DNA from: a virus
Direction: 5' to 3' (one strand)
DNA: 21,880 nucleotides
IMG/VR virus record: IMGVR_UViG_3300021378_003361
Coordinates: 1-21,880 of that record
Program-made: the position numbers and the translations under genes
Shown here: in pieces, positions 11,892 through 21,880 of the stretch
How the letters are laid out: each line of letters starts with the position of its first letter
How positions within the stretch are numbered: position 1 is the first letter of the stretch
Notes under the pieces: model-generated
Databases searched by the model: none
Told to the model about the DNA's origin: nothing
The model's input: only the letters and a program-made list of their open reading frames with translations

Positions 11892-14087
11892 ATGTTTTTT
11901 GGTATTTTAACGTTATTAGTAGCCCTGACCATCAGTGGCGTTGCAATATATTATAGTGTTGCAGGACTAGTTGCTATTTTTGCAGCCGCCAGTATACCTA
12001 TTATTATTATGGGTGGCGCACTTGAGATAGGCAAATTAGTAGCCGCAGTGTGGTTGCATCGTTATTGGAGTCGTGCTGCCTGGTGGTTACGCTTATATTT
12101 AAGTGTAGCTGTATTGGTACTAATGTTTATTACAAGTATGGGTATCTTTGGCTTTCTATCAAAAGCACATATTGAACAAACTGCCGCAGCCAGTGAACAA
12201 GTAGCAACACTAGCAAGGTTTGATGAAGAAATTCTAAGAGAACGAGAAGTTATCGAAAGAGCAGAAGCACGTATTGCTAAGGGCGAAGAAGATGCTAACA
12301 AAGAAGATGTTGGTATACAAGAAAAGATAGATAAAGAACAAGAACGTATTGACGGTGCATATACAAGACGTCAACCTAGTATACAAGAACAACTGGACAT
12401 TATTGAAGCACAGGAACTAGCACTTGATACAAGGGTTGCTGTGTTTGAAGATGAGATTGCTAGTTTAGATACTGAAATTGTTCGACTGAATGGCCTAGTA
12501 TCTGAATATAGAACTGAACTTGCTAATACCAATGTTGCTAGTGTTGAGGAACAAGTACAACCTTATCGTGATCAAATTATACAACTTGATGATGATTTAG
12601 TAAAACTTAATAACCAAGCAGCAGACTATGAAGCACGTATTGCTGAATTACTACCAGACTTGAGTGCTATACCTACACTTAGAGAACAGATTGCTGTTTT
12701 AGAAAATCGTATTGCAGAACTAAAGCCAGATTACAGTGCTGTAGACACCTTACAAGAACAAATTAGTGCAGTAGAAGAACAAATAGTATTAGTTACAAAC
12801 AAATTACAAAGTCGTGAGCGTGATAAAATTAAAGAAGGCCAAGCAGTTATTGGTGTTACTAGTGATGGATTATTTGGTGGTAACACAACAAGAGCATACA
12901 ACTCGTGGTTAGAAGCTCAACGTGCTCGTATTGCTGAACTACAAGGACAAGAGACAACTCTTAAAGCACAAGCACAAACAGTAGTATCAACTGAGCGTGA
13001 ACGTTTAAGTGGACTTATTAAAAACTTACAAGATCAATCAAGTGAGATACGTAATACTGCGCAAGCAACTGTTACTGCTGAACGTGAACGTTTAACTGGA
13101 TTGGTAACCAATATACGTGGTGCACAAACCGAAGCAGTACAAGAACGTAAACAAGGATTGCTAGATACAATTGATCGTATTCGTAGAGATGCAGAAAGTA
13201 GTTTACAATCACAGCGTGATAACATACAAGCAAAAATTACTACAGTACTAGATATAGACATTCCTGCTGTTAGAGAACAACGTAAATTAGCACAGGATAG
13301 TATTACTGATTTACGCAATTCACCAGACATAAAAATTGAAAATGCGCAAGTGGAAATAGCTAGACTACGTGAACTAGCAGAAGCAGAAATTGCACAGTCT
13401 CAGAGTGTTATTGAAAGACTACGTGCTGAAATTCAGATAGGTGAAAATGTAGACCTAGATGAATTAACTGATGCACAGTTAGCCAGAATTAAAACAGCAA
13501 ACGATAACATTGATCGTATTACAAATGAAAAGTTTGCATTGCAAAGTGAAGCTAGAAAACTAGAAGCAGAAGTAGGACCTGTTAAGTACTTGGCAGAGTT
13601 TATATACGAGGATGCAGATCGTACAACACTTGAAGATGCTGTACGTTGGGTAATACTTATTATTATATTTGTGTTTGATCCATTAGCAGTTGCATTATTA
13701 ATTGGTGCACAGTATATATTTGAATGGCGTAGAGCAGATAGAGGACTACCACCAAGAGTACCTCCCCCACCAATAAAAAAGCCTAAACCTGTAATTGAAC
13801 CCAAAGAGGAAGAAGTACAGGAAAGCATATTACCAGAGTTACAAGAAGTTGCAGATAAATGGAAGGATACAGCCGCCGCAGCCGCAGGAATAAAAAATCC
13901 TGGGCCAATGCATAATACCATTAAGCCAAAACCTGACAACAAAAAGGTTGACAAAGACAAATATGACCCGTATACTGATACAAGACCAACAGAAGAACTA
14001 ACAAAAGAAGAACGTGCTAAACGAGAAGTCATATGGCCAGACGGGTATGATGGCAAATTAGCACCACCAAAACCATTTCAAGAATAA
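11892..14087 (+). CDS. Large membrane protein with long coiled coil
   Basis: The 731 residues have two hydrophobic segments in about 1-55, a third at 65-90 and one at 583-612 (WVILIIIFVFDPLAVALLIGAQYIF). Between them lies a nearly continuous heptad-rich coiled coil of some 480 residues. Around 312-335 a short insert (IGVTSDGLFGGNTTRAYNSW) resembles the DGxFGxxT-A signature of peptidoglycan-binding repeats. The C-terminal tail is Pro/Lys/Glu-rich. It is probably anchored at both ends in the inner membrane with the coil on one side. I do not recognise the family; comparable coil-containing membrane proteins occur in marine myoviruses. It starts 4 nt after the SNase gene. AAAG is the only ribosome-binding hint. 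Confidence 0.8.
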   Translation: MFFGILTLLVALTISGVAIYYSVAGLVAIFAAASIPIIIMGGALEIGKLVAAVWLHRYWSRAAWWLRLYLSVAVLVLMFITSMGIFGFLSKAHIEQTAAASEQVATLARFDEEILREREVIERAEARIAKGEEDANKEDVGIQEKIDKEQERIDGAYTRRQPSIQEQLDIIEAQELALDTRVAVFEDEIASLDTEIVRLNGLVSEYRTELANTNVASVEEQVQPYRDQIIQLDDDLVKLNNQAADYEARIAELLPDLSAIPTLREQIAVLENRIAELKPDYSAVDTLQEQISAVEEQIVLVTNKLQSRERDKIKEGQAVIGVTSDGLFGGNTTRAYNSWLEAQRARIAELQGQETTLKAQAQTVVSTERERLSGLIKNLQDQSSEIRNTAQATVTAERERLTGLVTNIRGAQTEAVQERKQGLLDTIDRIRRDAESSLQSQRDNIQAKITTVLDIDIPAVREQRKLAQDSITDLRNSPDIKIENAQVEIARLRELAEAEIAQSQSVIERLRAEIQIGENVDLDELTDAQLARIKTANDNIDRITNEKFALQSEARKLEAEVGPVKYLAEFIYEDADRTTLEDAVRWVILIIIFVFDPLAVALLIGAQYIFEWRRADRGLPPRVPPPPIKKPKPVIEPKEEEVQESILPELQEVADKWKDTAAAAAGIKNPGPMHNTIKPKPDNKKVDKDKYDPYTDTRPTEELTKEERAKREVIWPDGYDGKLAPPKPFQE

Positions 14088-14096
14088 GAGCAAAAT

Positions 14097-14516
14097 TTGG
14101 AAAACAATAGCATATACACTATCACAGCACCGGATTTAATGGCAACAGCCACTGGACCTAGCATTTCAGTTTTAAGTACAAGCGATGATTTTTTAAGGGA
14201 AATTGAACGATTACATGAAAACTTATTTAAAAGTGTGCCAGTAACTATATACCATTGGCCAAATGACTTAAATAATTTAGCTTGGTTAATTGCTGTGATG
14301 CATTTAAGTAATAATATTTTTGTACACATGGACACCGTCAACACAGCTGGATTAGTTTCTAGTTTATTAACTGAATCCAATGTAGTGTACATCAATGAAA
14401 ACCAATCTAATAGACAAGACATTGTTAAATTGTTTAATACAATGTCAGACGAACATTTTGTGTACCATTCAGCAGATGAGTACATGACATCAATTATGTC
14501 AGATATGGCAAATTAA
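14097..14516 (+). CDS. Hypothetical protein, conserved type in marine myoviruses
   Basis: The start is probably TTG at 14097 (139 residues), with AAGAG 6 nt upstream; the first ATG is at 14139. I keep the TTG because the segment IYTITAPDLMATATGPSISVLS reads as the beta strand of an alpha-beta fold. The rest alternates strands and helices (VPVTIYHWP, NLAWLIAVMHLSNNIFVHMD, SNVVYINEN), suggesting a Rossmann-like small domain without visible nucleotide-binding motifs. It lies between the membrane protein and the IF3 gene. The function is unknown. Confidence 0.68.
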   Translation: MENNSIYTITAPDLMATATGPSISVLSTSDDFLREIERLHENLFKSVPVTIYHWPNDLNNLAWLIAVMHLSNNIFVHMDTVNTAGLVSSLLTESNVVYINENQSNRQDIVKLFNTMSDEHFVYHSADEYMTSIMSDMAN

Positions 14517-14529
14517 CATAGGAGAAATA

Positions 14530-14574
14530 ATGATTACCAATATGATATTTACGGAATGTTATGAGAAAATTTAA
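14530..14574 (+). CDS. Putative 14-codon leader ORF overlapping infC
   Basis: ATG at 14530 has the best Shine-Dalgarno of the region (AGGAGA, about 5 nt upstream) and encodes MITNMIFTECYEKI before TAA. It ends inside the first five codons of infC, which itself has only a weak GGA near its ATG. Ribosomes loaded on this ORF could re-initiate on infC, so the short ORF probably controls IF3 synthesis by translational coupling. It may simply be a remnant of a former start. Confidence 0.45.
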   Translation: MITNMIFTECYEKI

Positions 14575-15094
14575 CAAACCGGAACCACGTACACCTATTA
14601 ACTCACAAATAAGATTCAATGAGTTAAGAGTGGTTGACGATCAAGGACAATTAGGTGTTATGAATAAAGCACAGGCAATTAATATTGCTGAAAGTCGTGG
14701 ATTAGATTTAGTAGTAATTACTGAGTCAGCAAAACCACCGGTAGCTAAAATTTTAGATGCTAATAAATACCTCTACGAACAAAAACGGCGTGAAAAAGAA
14801 CAAGCAAAACGTCAGCGTGAAAGTCGTATTGAGGTTAAAGAGATACAATTTCGTCCTGGAATTGGTGATCATGACTTTGAAACAAAATTAAAAAATATCG
14901 ATAAGTTTCTTACCAAAGGCAACAAAGTTAAACTCATGGTGCGTTTTAAAGGTCGAGAAAACGCAAATAAACAAATAGGTTTTGAAATACTTGAACGAGT
15001 ACATGAGTCTTTTACTAATGTTGAATGGGATGCAAAACCTAGCCTAAACGGAAACAGATTGATTGGGATATTGAAAAGAGGTAAGAATGGCTAG
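14561..15094 (+). CDS. infC: Translation initiation factor IF3
   Basis: The 177 residues cover a whole IF3. The N-domain is at 10-80 (INSQIRFNELRVVDDQGQLGVM, ESRGLDLVVI, KPPVAKILDANKYLYEQ), the lysine-rich linker helix follows (KRREKEQAKRQRESRIEVKEIQFRPGIGDHDF), and the C-domain is at 95-175 (FLTKGNKVKLMVRFKGRENANKQIG). IF3 binds the 30S platform, prevents 70S re-association and proofreads start codons. Both domains seem intact, so it could replace or compete with host IF3. The start is ATG 14561, since an in-frame stop lies at 14543. It overlaps the bS21 gene by 8 nt. IF3 is uncommon in phages of ordinary size. Confidence 0.95.
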   Translation: MRKFNKPEPRTPINSQIRFNELRVVDDQGQLGVMNKAQAINIAESRGLDLVVITESAKPPVAKILDANKYLYEQKRREKEQAKRQRESRIEVKEIQFRPGIGDHDFETKLKNIDKFLTKGNKVKLMVRFKGRENANKQIGFEILERVHESFTNVEWDAKPSLNGNRLIGILKRGKNG

Positions 15095-15314
15095 AAGACC
15101 AGAAAAGGTAAACCAAGGCCTTTATGTAGAAGTACACAACAATGATGTTGGTAGAGCTCTACGTAAATTAAAAAAGATGGTGAACAATGAAGGTATCTTA
15201 AAAGATCTTCGTGATAAAGAATACTATGAGAAGCCAAGTCTAAAGCGCAAGAAAGCAAAAGCAGCCGCCCGTAAACGGTGGTTAAAACAACAAGAAAAAA
15301 ATAACAATAGATAG
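15087..15314 (+). CDS. rpsU: Small ribosomal subunit protein bS21
   Basis: These 75 residues match bS21 in length and pattern: VEVHNNDVGRALRKLKKMVNNEGILKDLRDKEYYEKPSLKRKKAKAAARKRW. bS21 sits on the 30S platform beside the anti-Shine-Dalgarno end of 16S rRNA. It is the ribosomal protein most often found in viruses, and viral copies are thought to enter host ribosomes. Here the gene overlaps infC by 8 nt (ATG within the last codons), so both initiation proteins are made together. The Shine-Dalgarno is weak, in keeping with coupling. A strong early promoter follows the stop codon immediately. Confidence 0.95.
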   Translation: MARRPEKVNQGLYVEVHNNDVGRALRKLKKMVNNEGILKDLRDKEYYEKPSLKRKKAKAAARKRWLKQQEKNNNR

Positions 15315-15315
15315 C

Positions 15316-15344
15316 TTGACAATCAGTACCAGATGTATTATATT
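15316..15344 (+). promoter_or_regulatory. Sigma70-type promoter (early)
   Basis: TTGACA (15316-15321), 17 bp, TATATT (15339-15344). It lies just after the bS21 stop and about 190 nt before the Hsp20 ATG, leaving an unusually long leader. Confidence 0.8.
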
Positions 15345-15349
15345 ATGAA

Positions 15350-15536
15350 TATAACAAGAAACGGCACTCAATGCGCTCGGACGTAAAGGCGCCATGATAA
15401 GACATATACAACTATAGACTACGGGTTGCAGCGTAATAAGCACGTGAAGTGCCACGGTAAGCACTTCAACTAATAAATAAATGTGGATGCCAATTATGGG
15501 TCCTCAAATTACATCTTGCTTAAAAGGAGATAAAAG
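15350..15536 (+). other. Long structured leader or small RNA upstream of hsp20
   Basis: This stretch between the early promoter and the Hsp20 ATG holds no ORF I can support. It contains a perfect 7-bp hairpin, GAAGTGC/GCACTTC (15446-15467, 8-nt loop), a GGCGCC palindrome near 15388, and a late box at 15472. AAAAGGAG precedes the hsp20 ATG. It could be a regulatory leader (for example an RNA thermometer for a heat-shock gene) or an independent small RNA; I see no match to a named riboswitch. Confidence 0.4.
15472..15479 (+). promoter_or_regulatory. T4-like late promoter box, hsp20
   Basis: AATAAATA followed by AATGT fits the extended ATAAATA-NN-TGT pattern seen at the three leaderless genes, but here the gene starts 57 nt downstream behind a normal Shine-Dalgarno. 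It gives hsp20 a second, late promoter. Confidence 0.5.
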
Positions 15537-15974
15537 ATGAATAGACTAACTACAATCGACTTGAATAAACTCACCCCTCACAGTGTTGGACTAGAAAGAA
15601 TGTTTAACGACATGTTTAGATATGTTGAACATCCGCAAAACGCTGGATACCCACCATATAATATTGTGCAGGAAGAAGAGCGTTTCCAAATTGAAATGGC
15701 ACTTGCCGGAGTATCTATGGAAGACGTAGATATTGAAGTCGCAGAAGGTGTTTTAACAGTCACGCATGATCCACAATTAGTGGAACACCCAGACACAGTG
15801 CGTTGGGTGCATAAGGGAATAGCACAACGTAAATTTACTCGTAGCTTTACCTTAGCTGATGACGTTATAGTACAAGGTGCAAGAATGGAAAATGGTATGC
15901 TTTATATTGAACTAGAGCGTATTATTCCAGAAGAAAAGAAACCACGTAAAATTAAAATTACGCAAGCAGCTTAA
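15537..15974 (+). CDS. Small heat-shock protein Hsp20 (IbpA-like)
   Basis: The 145-residue protein has a short N-terminal arm typical of phage Hsp20 (RLTTIDLNKLTPHSVGLERMFNDMF), an alpha-crystallin domain at about 40-135 (YNIVQEEERFQIEMALAGVSMEDVDIEV...GVLTVTHD...RKFTRSFTLADDV...GMLYIELERIIP) and a C-terminal tail with KIKI in place of the IxI motif. It is an ATP-independent holdase that keeps unfolding proteins soluble; Hsp20 is common in T4-like cyanophages. GGAG lies 8 nt before the ATG. Both an early and a late promoter lie upstream, suggesting use throughout infection. A strong GC hairpin follows the stop. Confidence 0.93.
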   Translation: MNRLTTIDLNKLTPHSVGLERMFNDMFRYVEHPQNAGYPPYNIVQEEERFQIEMALAGVSMEDVDIEVAEGVLTVTHDPQLVEHPDTVRWVHKGIAQRKFTRSFTLADDVIVQGARMENGMLYIELERIIPEEKKPRKIKITQAA

Positions 15975-16020: not shown

Positions 16021-16320
16021 ATGAGTACACAATTAGCAACAGACGAAGTCTTGGATATTGGCTTTGACCTACCAAGGAAGTATAAAGTCATCCTGTATAA
16101 TGATGACCACACTCCTGTTGAATTTGTAATACAATTATTAATTAATTTATTTCATAAAAGTAATAGTGAGGCTGAGGCAATCACTGTTTCTGTACATAAC
16201 GAAGGACAGGGAGTTGCTGGAATTTATCAGTACGAAATTGCTGAACAGAAAGTTTATGAAGCAACTAATATTAGTCGTTCAAACGGCTTCCCGCTTACAT
16301 TAAAGGTAGAAGAAGAATAA
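16021..16320 (+). CDS. clpS: ClpS, N-degron adaptor for the ClpAP protease
   Basis: The 99 residues match ClpS. The N-end substrate pocket motif is present as [11 protein letters not shown] (N27, D28, D29, T31), with H59 in [12 protein letters not shown] equivalent to the E. coli pocket His, and the C-terminal PLTLKVEEE. ClpS delivers proteins with Leu, Phe, Tyr or Trp at the N-terminus to host ClpA and can inhibit other ClpAP substrates. A phage copy could redirect host proteolysis. The N-terminal extension (about 17 residues) that acts on ClpA is present. AGGA precedes the ATG; GMP reductase starts 1 nt after the stop. Confidence 0.93.
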
Positions 16321-16321
16321 T

Positions 16322-17458
16322 ATGAGAATTGAAAATGAAATTTTGTTGGACTACAGTGATGTTCTGATTCGTCCAAAGCGTAGTACTCTTGGGTCACGTA
16401 AAGAAGTTGACCTGGAGCGACAGTTTACATTCTGTCATGGAGGTTTTAAAAACCAAGGCGTCTTACTTGATGATTATGATTGGTCAGGTGTACCAATTAT
16501 TGCAAGTAATATGGACGGTGTTGGTACCATGGAAATGGCAGACCAGTTAGCTACTGGCAAAATAATGACTTGCTTGGTTAAAACTTATAGTGCACAAGAG
16601 CTTATCAGTTATTTTAATGAAGGAATGACTGAACGTACTGAGTATGTTGCTATGAGCATTGGTATTAGAAGTCATGATGAAGCAAAGTTTACTGAAGTAT
16701 ATAATGCAGTTGGTAAAAACTTACAATACGTTTGTATTGATGTTGCTAACGGATACAGTCAACGTTTTGTAGAATTTGTTGCTGATTTTAGAATGCGTTT
16801 TCCACGTGTGGTAATCATTGCAGGTAATGTTGTTACCGCAGATCAAACACAGGAGTTAATCTTAAATGGAGCAGATATTGTTAAAGTTGGTATTGGGCCT
16901 GGCAGTGTTTGTACTACTCGTATACAAACTGGCGTTGGTTACCCTCAGCTTTCTGCTGTTATCGAATGTGCAGACGCCGCTCACGGTCTTGGCGGTCATA
17001 TCATTGCTGATGGTGGCTGTACTTGTCCTGGTGATGTGGCTAAAGCATTTGCTGGTGGTGCTGATTTCGTAATGCTTGGTGGCATGCTTGCTGGGCACGA
17101 TGAAGGCGGCGGCGAAGTGATTGAAAAATTTTATGAAACTAACCAGTTAGAAGATTTACATGGCGAACGTGTAATTGAAAGAAAACAGTTTGTACAGTTT
17201 TACGGTATGAGTAGTGACGCAGCAAACACAAAACATTTTGGTGGTTTAAAAGACTATCGTAGTAGCGAAGGACGTGAAGTACTTGTACCATATCGTGGTG
17301 CTGTTGGTCACACTGTGCAAAATATCTTAGGCGGTGTGCGTAGTACATGTACATACGTTGGTGCAAACACACTAAAGCAACTTAGTAAGTGCACAACATT
17401 CATTCGTGTAAACAACCAGTTTAATCGAACATACGAGTCAACGACAACTAAGATGTAA
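16322..17458 (+). CDS. guaC: GMP reductase
   Basis: This (beta/alpha)8-barrel enzyme of the IMPDH/GMPR family should convert GMP to IMP with NADPH, releasing ammonia. The active-site loop is [11 protein letters not shown] with catalytic C197, followed by [22 protein letters not shown] and [33 protein letters not shown], which match GuaC rather than IMP dehydrogenase; there is no CBS insert. At 378 residues it is slightly longer than E. coli GuaC (about 347). It would let the phage recycle guanine nucleotides from host RNA into the adenine pool, in keeping with an AT-rich genome. It is coupled to clpS. Confidence 0.93.
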
Positions 17459-19430: not shown

Positions 19431-19649
19431 ATGCAGCACAGTATTGAAGATTTAATTAGACGTATAAATGTTATGAAAGATAAAGCAGTTCTGCTGCACA
19501 GAGTACGTAACCAATATAGTAACTTAATTGAAGAACAGTATGACAAAGAAGCATGCAATATATTAATAGAAGATATCCAATCATTAGCATTGGGGATTGC
19601 ATATGATCGTGAAGGTAGCGATATCAAAACTGAAATGGAATATAAATGA
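19431..19649 (+). CDS. Small helical hypothetical protein
   Basis: The 72-residue protein has a clear AGGAG 5 nt before the ATG. It is predicted to be all-helical with heptad-like spacing (IEDLIRRINVMKDKAVLLHRVRNQYSNLIEEQ), so a helical hairpin or small coiled coil is likely. No known family. Its stop overlaps the start of the YqgE-like gene (ATGA), which couples the two. Confidence 0.7.
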   Translation: MQHSIEDLIRRINVMKDKAVLLHRVRNQYSNLIEEQYDKEACNILIEDIQSLALGIAYDREGSDIKTEMEYK

Positions 19650-20200
19650 ATCTAGCAGGAGAGTTTTTAGTTAGCCTACCTACAATTAACACAGGCAGTT
19701 TTAATCGAAGTATAGTTCTAATGAAAGAACATACTGGAGATGGTGCTTTTGGCTGGATTGTAAACAAGCAGTTAGACGACAAAATTTCTCAGAGATTACG
19801 TAAAGGTATGCATCTAACTCGTGATATACCATTGTACTTTGGTGGGCCTGTAGACGTAAACAATGCTGTTGTTATACACAGTAATGACTTAACACTTCCT
19901 AGTACAAAAAAACTTAATGACACACTGAGCATTACAAAGGACAAAAGCATTGTGAATGTAATGAATATTGGTCAGTTTCCTGAATATTGGCGTGTAATTG
20001 TTGGAAGAAGTAGTTGGGGAGCAGGACAACTAGAAAGTGAAATACTTGGTAGTCGTACTAATGGAATCAGTACTTGGATGAATATTAACTATAGTGATGA
20101 TCTAATGTGGCAAACCATGCCAAGTAAACAATGGGAATATAGTATTGAACTAGCAGCCCAAGACATGACTAGTAATATTTTTAATACGCATAATACATAG
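19646..20200 (+). CDS. YqgE/AlgH family protein (UPF0301, DUF179)
   Basis: The 184 residues match the bacterial family in length and pattern: LAGEFLVSLPTINTGSFNRSIVLMKEHTGDGAFGWIVNKQL near the start, YFGGPVDVNNAVVIHS in the middle, and EYWRVIVGRSSWGAGQLESEI in the last third. The biochemical function of the family is not settled; AlgH was linked to alginate regulation in Pseudomonas. It is usually a host chromosomal gene, so its presence in a phage suggests a captured host function. Translation is coupled to the small gene upstream, and a terminator starts within its stop codon. Confidence 0.87.
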   Translation: MNLAGEFLVSLPTINTGSFNRSIVLMKEHTGDGAFGWIVNKQLDDKISQRLRKGMHLTRDIPLYFGGPVDVNNAVVIHSNDLTLPSTKKLNDTLSITKDKSIVNVMNIGQFPEYWRVIVGRSSWGAGQLESEILGSRTNGISTWMNINYSDDLMWQTMPSKQWEYSIELAAQDMTSNIFNTHNT

Positions 20201-20931: not shown

Positions 20932-21032
20932 TGGCTCCAGGGGGAGGATTCGAACCTCCACGGTAAATACTTTGCGAGTTATCTACCACACGATAAACAG
21001 TCGTGCGTGTCTACCAATTTCACCACCCTGGA
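20932..21032 (-). tRNA. Unusual tRNA-Asn (GUU) with long class II variable arm
   Basis: A 101-nt cloverleaf with perfect acceptor TCCAGGG/CCCTGGA, G73 and encoded CCA, D-stem GTG/CAC, anticodon stem CACGA/TCGTG, and T-stem GGAGG/CCTCC with TTCGAAT. The loop CTGTTTA gives anticodon GTT. U1-A72, G73 and GUU match known asparagine identity (E. coli tRNA-Asn also begins TCC and ends GGAGCCA). But the variable region is about 29 nt with an 8-bp stem (GGTAGATA/TATTTACC), as only Leu, Ser or Tyr tRNAs would have, the D-arm looks Leu-like, and position 37 is U rather than a purine. It begins 5 nt after the synthetase-like gene. Confidence 0.85.
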
Positions 21033-21037
21033 TAAGT

Positions 21038-21880
21038 CTATGCAGCTTGAGCAAAACTTCCTTGTTTGTCCAGTGCTGCAATCATTCTTGTCATACCAAT
21101 ACCGCCACCTACTCTTTGGAAGAAGTCAAACTTGAGGAACTCTTCTAGTTCTGCTTCTACACGTTCTTTACCAAATAGTTTGTATAGTAACTCTGCATAA
21201 TCTCCGTCTACAATACTGTGGAATGTATCACGCATCATATCAACATCACAACTACGTTCTGCTGATCCAATAGTTTCCATACCACCTAAGATAACGTCCA
21301 TCTTTTTAGCAGTATTGCCATCATCGTTACGTGCCATATTCCAGAAAGGCGATGTTAGTTCTGGGAAGTCTGTGATCAAACAACTACCAAAGTTTGCTTC
21401 CATTGCTAACTCATGTTGTGCATCCATTTCAGTATCTGCACTTACACCCCAATGCTGTTGCCATTCTCTGTATGTTTTTTCTGTTAGTGGATCAAATCCC
21501 AAGTATTCACATAATTCAATTTCCATTGCTTTAAGATCATCTACACTGCCTGGAAACTCAAACTCAAACATTGGAAAAATAATGTCGTGTCTACCTGGTA
21601 TAGCATTTGGTTCTTGTCTATAGGACGTTGAAACACAAAAAAAGCCCTTACTATCGGGCTTGCTTAATAATTCATGTTCTAACCACATCTGGCCTGTTTG
21701 GGGCAACGGCCAAACCTGGCCGGCATAATTGTACGTTGCTACATTAAATGGATCTTCACATGCGGCAAGTATGCTTAGTCTATTCTGAGTATGGACTTCT
21801 AAAAAGCCTTTGCTCAAAAAAAAGGACCTTAAAAGGCCCACAGTTTCAGTAAATTTTGTTGGATTTATTAGTTGTGTCAT
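21038..21880 (-). CDS. AsnRS-like class II aminoacyl-tRNA synthetase catalytic domain
   Basis: The 280 residues form a class IIb (AspRS/AsnRS) core. Motif 1 region is RSFFLSKGFLEVHTQ (18-32). TGQMWLEHEL (62-71) corresponds to the SGQL segment of AsnRS. Motif 2 is YRQEPN with R88 and E90, then R97-H98 and FPMFEFEF. GGMETIGSAERSCD matches the GGEI-GSxRE segment, and motif 3 is GGGIGMTR (258-265). The OB-fold anticodon-binding domain of AspRS/AsnRS is missing, unless the gene begins beyond the window edge; an ATG sits exactly at 21880, so the true start is open. It may charge the adjacent tRNA, make asparagine (AsnA-like) or modify another molecule (EpmA- or GluQRS-like). Confidence 0.85.
   Translation of the reverse strand: MTQLINPTKFTETVGLLRSFFLSKGFLEVHTQNRLSILAACEDPFNVATYNYAGQVWPLPQTGQMWLEHELLSKPDSKGFFCVSTSYRQEPNAIPGRHDIIFPMFEFEFPGSVDDLKAMEIELCEYLGFDPLTEKTYREWQQHWGVSADTEMDAQHELAMEANFGSCLITDFPELTSPFWNMARNDDGNTAKKMDVILGGMETIGSAERSCDVDMMRDTFHSIVDGDYAELLYKLFGKERVEAELEEFLKFDFFQRVGGGIGMTRMIAALDKQGSFAQAA

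Follow-up and report, generated by a model that had tools for sequence, protein, structure and literature searches.

Why would a phage make its own initiation factor and its own ribosomal protein from two overlapping genes? The window analysed here, a 21,880-base stretch that is a separate viral record from a marine phage, carries infC, encoding translation initiation factor IF3, directly followed by rpsU, encoding ribosomal protein bS21. On the 30S subunit, bS21 sits beside the anti-Shine-Dalgarno helix and IF3 on the platform. A preliminary description proposed that the two genes form a dedicated module for reprogramming ribosomes. No close cultured relatives of the window were found by DNA, and we assessed the proposal by comparison with viral and cellular loci.

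An intact infC–rpsU pair

Coordinates and Pfam domains confirmed that a full-length IF3 gene and a bS21 gene overlap (Table 1), by exactly 8 nt (15087–15094, ATGGCTAG). A Shine-Dalgarno-like AGAGG at 15077–15081 lies 5 nt upstream of the rpsU ATG. Gaps of −20 to +10 nt separate 32% of same-strand neighbour genes in these phages; because short overlaps are common in such compact genomes, the infC/rpsU overlap by itself says little, and an argument from chance overlap was dropped in favour of partner conservation. What stands above chance is the retention of rpsU as the partner of infC.

Table 1 Features in and around the infC–rpsU pair, by position in the window
Feature	Position	Strand	Description
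P1, sigma-70-type promoter-like site	13948–13976	+	TTGACA-17-TATACT, 11/12 consensus matches
139-aa gene	14097–14516	+	Putative protein; directly upstream of infC, clpX–infC or rpsU in this phage group
Leader ORF	14530–14574	+	14 codons, MITNMIFTECYEKI then stop; AGGAG at 14520–14524
infC	14561–15094	+	ATG at 14561, stop 15092–15094; 177 aa, full-length translation initiation factor IF3
rpsU	15087–15314	+	ATG at 15087, stop 15312–15314; 75 aa, ribosomal protein bS21
P2, sigma-70-type promoter-like site	15316–15344	+	TTGACA-17-TATATT, 11/12 consensus matches; starts 2 nt after rpsU stop
ROSE-like RNA thermometer candidate	15481–15542	+	Covers hsp20 ribosome-binding site; RF02523, E = 0.077
hsp20	15537–15974	+	Small heat-shock chaperone; PF00011, E = 1e-17
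clpS	16021–16320	+	Adaptor of ClpA protease, 99 aa; PF02617, E = 3e-29
IMP dehydrogenase/GMP reductase family gene	16322–17458	+	guaB-like, next in block; PF00478, E = 1e-67

Both IF3 domains are nearly full length (IF3_N, PF05198, E = 7e-26, residues 13–81; IF3_C, PF00707, E = 3e-26, residues 90–172), and the phage infC also matches phrog_9787 and PDB IF3 chains, with E values down to 8e-39. Fold comparison used the model of a relative, L088, whose IF3 is 59% identical, in place of the window protein; this model matches 30S-bound IF3 (5lmn_X, 9ss2_F3 and 8jsh_A; TM 0.73–0.84, E values to 1e-17). The linker between the IF3 domains is helical (helix 70–91 in the model of a relative).

In an alignment with E. 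coli IF3, the window protein keeps Y75, R99, K110, R129, R133 and R147, carries conservative changes to Lys at R112, R116 and R131, and has Asn at R168 with an Arg following. The 30S-binding residues of the E. coli factor we take to be R99, K110, R112, R116, R129, R131, R133, R147 and R168. The loss of rRNA-contact residues that the preliminary description had named as evidence against its proposal was not found: the protein retains the majority of residues with known 30S contacts. The bS21 of the window matches Ribosomal_S21 (PF01165, E = 3e-19) and PDB bS21 chains, is 40% identical to E. coli bS21 and contains the YEKPS-KRKKAK core. Median dN/dS was 0.08 for infC and 0.15 for rpsU (simple NG86 estimates, with some pairs saturated), indicating that both genes are under purifying selection; together with the kept residues, these values rule out decayed pseudogenes.

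Conservation and origin of the pair

Relatives were gathered by single-protein searches (37 and 76 viral loci) and by profiles (80 and 80 more). When viral IF3s were clustered at 90% identity, rpsU abutted or overlapped infC in 40 of 55 clusters, a count that is not an unbiased frequency because profile A3 was seeded with paired IF3s; the single-sequence scan also returned unpaired IF3s. In the paired clusters rpsU starts −86 to +7 nt from the infC stop, and start-codon choice may account for the largest overlaps. Among the remaining clusters, one has rpsU 2.1 kb off and 14 have none seen nearby. Clustering at 60% identity gave adjacency in 12 of 20 clusters, and the tight spacing holds down to about 38% IF3 identity. 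In viral records of 61–266 kb with both genes, the two are neighbours in 11 of 13 cases; the other two records have them separated by 2.1 and about 9 kb. Adjacency in phages, which the preliminary description had put forward for survey, is thus conserved.

No ready-made host operon was found that could have supplied the pair. In the flanking sequence covered, which reached up to 6 kb on either side, rpsU was absent from all 61 cellular infC loci; most of those inspected had the usual L35/L20 neighbours, and no infC–rpsU operon was present in E. coli, Legionella, Falsirhodobacter or Parabacteroides contexts. The bacterial operon (thrS–infC–rpmI–rplT) encodes a homologous IF3, but its partners are L35 and L20; E. 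coli infC starts with AUU, whereas the phage gene starts with ATG behind a leader ORF. IF3 scans returned two loci with a query from phage 121Q and none with a query from Vibrio phage 2.275.O. In some infC records labelled as phage (L351 and L352, CAKLQH020000014 and MK672802; Vibrio Va_90-11-286_p16 and Acinetobacter MD-2021a), the gene has the bacterial thrS–infC(–rpmI–rplT) context, which indicates contamination or host DNA adjoining a prophage; these were left uncounted as phage genes.

On a tree of 73 IF3s, all 29 of 29 paired rows fell together with six 121Q/GAP32-type jumbo-phage IF3s in one clade (support 96/91), and the paired state required 2 changes, against 22.9 in shuffles. Vibrio phage 2.275.O, which is paired, is sister to jumbo phages without rpsU, so the most parsimonious history has the pair gained once and rpsU lost once. 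Phage IF3s outside this clade are not paired. The tree suggests that IF3 entered phages more than once and that the pair probably arose once. Recent random acquisition of either gene, which would have spoken against the preliminary description, was not found and is ruled out by the single deep origin on the IF3 tree. A combined bS21, Hsp20 and ClpS tree, of which we use the broad message alone because of its long branches, gave 4 changes for the infC label versus 16.9 in shuffles.

Several traits are typical of the IF3s of the paired clade: an NGNR motif (R168 replaced by N, then R), and a linker with one additional Q, behind which stands an R-E motif. The N-terminal tails of the phage bS21s are basic and variable. 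Distance correlations were 0.83 for IF3 and bS21 and 0.80 for IF3 and ClpS; since the first is no stronger than the second, this comparison gave no sign of co-evolution specific to IF3 and bS21 beyond shared history.

The larger cassette and its putative expression signals

The pair belongs to a larger phage cassette, (clpX)–infC–rpsU–hsp20–clpS, and the idea of a dedicated two-gene module proved too narrow. The conserved order is a 731-aa membrane/coiled-coil gene, the 139-aa gene, clpX where present, infC, rpsU, hsp20, clpS and the IMP dehydrogenase/GMP reductase gene. In the window, infC, rpsU and clpS share one strand within 3 kb (offsets: infC +0, rpsU +526, hsp20 +976, clpS +1460). Among the 40 paired clusters, 39 have clpS at most 2.6 kb downstream of infC, the exception being a contig end; hsp20 follows infC–rpsU in most paired phages and clpX precedes infC in a subset. 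The ClpS pocket motif (NDD.TP, VH) is kept as YNDDHTP and SVHNEG, with YEIAEQK aligned to the ClpA-contacting segment. The 139-aa gene (family F4) occurs at 21 of 26 infC loci and many rpsU-only loci, and the IMP dehydrogenase/GMP reductase gene (family F10) at 15 of 26 infC loci and most rpsU-only loci. AlphaFold2 predicts an alpha/beta receiver-like fold for the 139-aa protein (pLDDT 91.6); its PDB matches were weak, with no convincing structural relative among them.

The members of the cassette also occur apart. In many relatives the block lacks infC and rpsU comes straight after the 139-aa gene; 121Q/GAP32-like relatives have no rpsU. Neither gene therefore needs the other. A single-sequence ClpS scan of viral contigs returned one locus, rpsU–hsp20–clpS without infC. 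Conversely, infC–clpS without adjacent rpsU is found in 121Q (L343), where a DnaJ-like gene lies next to it, GAP32 (L336), XaC1 (L344) and K64-1 (L346). Combinations with clpX include clpX–infC in Phosso and Atu_ph07, clpX–rpsU–clpS in SCTP-2 and clpX–rpsU–x–x–hsp20–clpS in PA5oct. This recurrence of gene subsets with differing flanks is the strongest argument for one shared programme; conserved order within one lineage is a weaker one.

Host-type promoter-like sites flank the pair. P1 falls within the 3'-terminal part of the 731-aa gene, with the 139-aa gene, the leader and infC all downstream of it, and its hexamers and 17-nt spacing are kept in 13 relatives at −560 to −628 from infC with a varying spacer sequence; as it lies within coding sequence, codon or protein constraint could account for part of this conservation. 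Like P1, P2 keeps its position across most of the clade to which the window belongs, again with a 17-nt spacer of variable sequence. Four relatives (L088, L064, L100 and L104) have a promoter-like site about 65 nt upstream of infC. From these sites, a host-type RNA polymerase would probably transcribe the 139-aa gene, leader, infC and rpsU from P1, with transcription of hsp20–clpS restarting from P2.

The leader ORF has a strong Shine-Dalgarno sequence, and the signal of infC itself is weak. The 3' end of the leader overlaps the start of infC by 14 nt in a different frame, and the same architecture (9–16 codons, a Shine-Dalgarno sequence and a stop 4–14 nt inside infC) occurs in at least 12 distinct relatives, with a poorly conserved peptide. 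We infer probable translational coupling at two points, between the Shine-Dalgarno-led leader and infC and, by way of the 8-nt overlap, between infC and rpsU; both proteins would then be produced together, probably early. This supports the earlier suggestion that an intact IF3 and bS21 come from one coupled unit.

The candidate thermometer ahead of hsp20 scored 26.8 bits against RF02523, and relatives scored at most 33.6, below the curated cut-off of 43; we call it ROSE-like only. Candidates in relatives had E values of 0.004–0.15 (L009 8911–8972, L046 8405–8468, L002 2923–2987), and a hairpin with a TCTTGCTT...AAGGAG motif is common to more than 12 phages, including some that lack infC.

Function of the pair

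The best explanation, to which we give a probability of about 60%, is that the pair supplies the initiation part of a conserved phage cassette that would take charge of protein synthesis and protein degradation in the host. The IF3 and bS21 of the window would be functional and join host 30S subunits; incorporation into E. coli ribosomes is on record for a pelagiphage bS21 (Mizuno 2019, PMC6375957). The likeliest benefit would be that the 30S subunits remain able to carry out Shine-Dalgarno/AUG initiation on phage mRNA once host expression has been shut down, with Hsp20 and ClpS then handling the folding and turnover of an altered proteome. A preference for phage mRNA is conceivable as a conjecture, and the sequence does not tell sustained initiation apart from such selection. 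Against this account, the 731-aa gene, the 139-aa gene, hsp20, clpS and the guaB-like gene are also conserved around the pair, so a gene order handed down in one T4-like lineage could explain part of the linkage. The similar distance correlations and the occurrence of each gene without the other count against it as well, as does the finding that pelagiphage bS21, once incorporated into E. coli ribosomes, cut translation to about 5% (PMC6375957).

Parts of the system have precedents. Huge phages likewise encode IF3 and bS21, for which a role in diverting host translation to phage mRNA was proposed (Al-Shayeb 2020, PMC7162821); the available portion of that paper lists IF1, IF3, S1, S4, S21 and L7/L12 across genomes and mentions no infC–rpsU adjacency, clpS/hsp20 linkage or leader and promoter structure. 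Hsp20 is a neighbour of phage bS21 genes in 127 of 900 genomes, as are Clp protease genes in 50 and 47 (Chen 2022, PMC9723584); IF3 goes unmentioned in the text of that study, and its bS21 genes lie among late structural genes, whereas that of the window follows infC and host-type early promoters. The jumbo phages 121Q, GAP32, Atu_ph07 and AP-J-162 carry an IF3 of the same or a related clade but have infC without an adjoining rpsU. IF3 and ClpS of jumbo phages have been noted separately (Iyer 2021, PMC7824862), and clpX adjoins IF-3 in phage AP-J-162, whose S21 is separate (PMC11242549, a 2024 paper).

The closest counterpart with a named host is Vibrio phage 2.275.O._10N.286.54.E11 (MG592671), an isolate from a Vibrio, in which infC (31702–32223) and rpsU (32234–32479) are followed by a ClpS-like gene. 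It differs from the window in having a 10-nt gap and no overlap, no hsp20 among the next genes, and other flanks in a 349-kb genome. The infC–rpsU–clpS order is visible in its GenBank record, as is infC–clpS in jumbo-phage records. We found no account of the infC–rpsU pair or the whole cassette in the full-text literature, a search that left subscription papers largely outside, so a report may exist. Phage IF3, bS21, ClpS and clpX–infC adjacency are thus already reported, and the infC–rpsU pair and joint cassette are apparently new. Phage IF3 and bS21 have so far been termed translation-hijack genes singly and seldom with tests. Their conservation as a coupled pair linked to clpS in one deep clade makes this a definite hypothesis, for which 2.275.O provides a sequenced isolate and the relatives without infC or rpsU provide natural variants for comparison. 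The linkage of initiation control with Clp proteolysis in phages has apparently not been discussed before as one system.

Another account, possible although less probable than the one we prefer, is supply only: the phage would encode two exchangeable initiation components whose dosage is limiting, since the host no longer makes them, and specificity would stay unchanged. Purifying selection, retention of most contact residues and the early-type promoters fit this account, as does the fact that bS21 is a loosely bound, exchangeable ribosomal protein (Mizuno 2019, PMC6375957). It leaves the linkage with clpX, hsp20 and clpS unexplained, and the clade-specific substitutions in the phage proteins also count against it.

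The preliminary description thought that the pair could tilt start-site selection in favour of phage mRNAs. Such selective reprogramming, in which the phage IF3 and bS21 replace the host factors and shift start selection by the 30S subunit towards phage mRNAs and off host mRNAs, seems unlikely. Both proteins have an established part in start selection, and the IF3 changes particular to the clade and the variable basic bS21 tails speak in its favour. Yet a rough Shine-Dalgarno count, made with automatic start choice, revealed no special start signals among genes near the pair: 51% of starts have a Shine-Dalgarno sequence in phages with infC versus 63% in relatives without it, and most are ATG. 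The distance correlations likewise set IF3 and bS21 no closer than IF3 and ClpS. A wider version, which we also hold to be improbable, makes the locus a portable takeover cassette with initiation control (IF3, bS21), turnover (ClpX, ClpS) and folding (Hsp20) in one co-ordinated programme; the phage would swap its own initiation parts into the host 30S subunit to favour phage mRNA and redirect Clp proteolysis, possibly onto displaced host factors.

It is similarly doubtful that the pair serves recycling, rescue or quality control, with IF3 acting as a subunit anti-association factor alongside phage tmRNA, ClpX and ClpS to clear ribosomes that have stalled or been damaged, whether in the course of infection or when a host defence attacks translation. 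We know of no rescue role for bS21, and tmRNA is present in only part of the relatives, the window stopping short of its expected place. In close relatives, permuted tmRNA genes with ALAA-ending tags do lie about 7 kb downstream, ClpX and ClpS are in the cassette, and such a role has been suggested for jumbo-phage IF3 (Iyer 2021, PMC7824862).

Neutral synteny, by which one lineage happened to hold infC by rpsU and preserved the order without joint function, agrees with the single origin and the equally ordered adjoining genes but is improbable, given that infC–rpsU–clpS or infC–clpS persists in jumbo phages with other flanks, that the spacing of the pair is maintained at IF3 identities below 40%, and that clpX combinations recur in other IF3 and bS21 lineages.

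The tmRNA genes of the relatives are of the permuted, alphaproteobacterial type (L002 9560–9890, L001 15586–15950, and L006, L008, L010, L011 and L018), with tags like ANNNYAPEMALAA, which suggests an alphaproteobacterial host. Two-piece tmRNA is already known in marine phages (PMC9004378).

Further genes were observed downstream of the cassette in the window. An AlgH/YqgE-like gene at 19646–20200 (PF02622, E = 1.5e-28), which had no PHROG match, is also present in several relatives. On the minus strand, an odd tRNA of about 100 nt, called as Asp with anticodon ATC (20932–21032), recurs in L001 and L008. Adjoining it, also on the minus strand (21038–21880), is a gene for a 280-aa protein resembling class II (D/K/N) tRNA synthetases (phrog_29758); Prochlorococcus phage P-SSM7 has a 'tRNA ligase' that is 67% identical to it.
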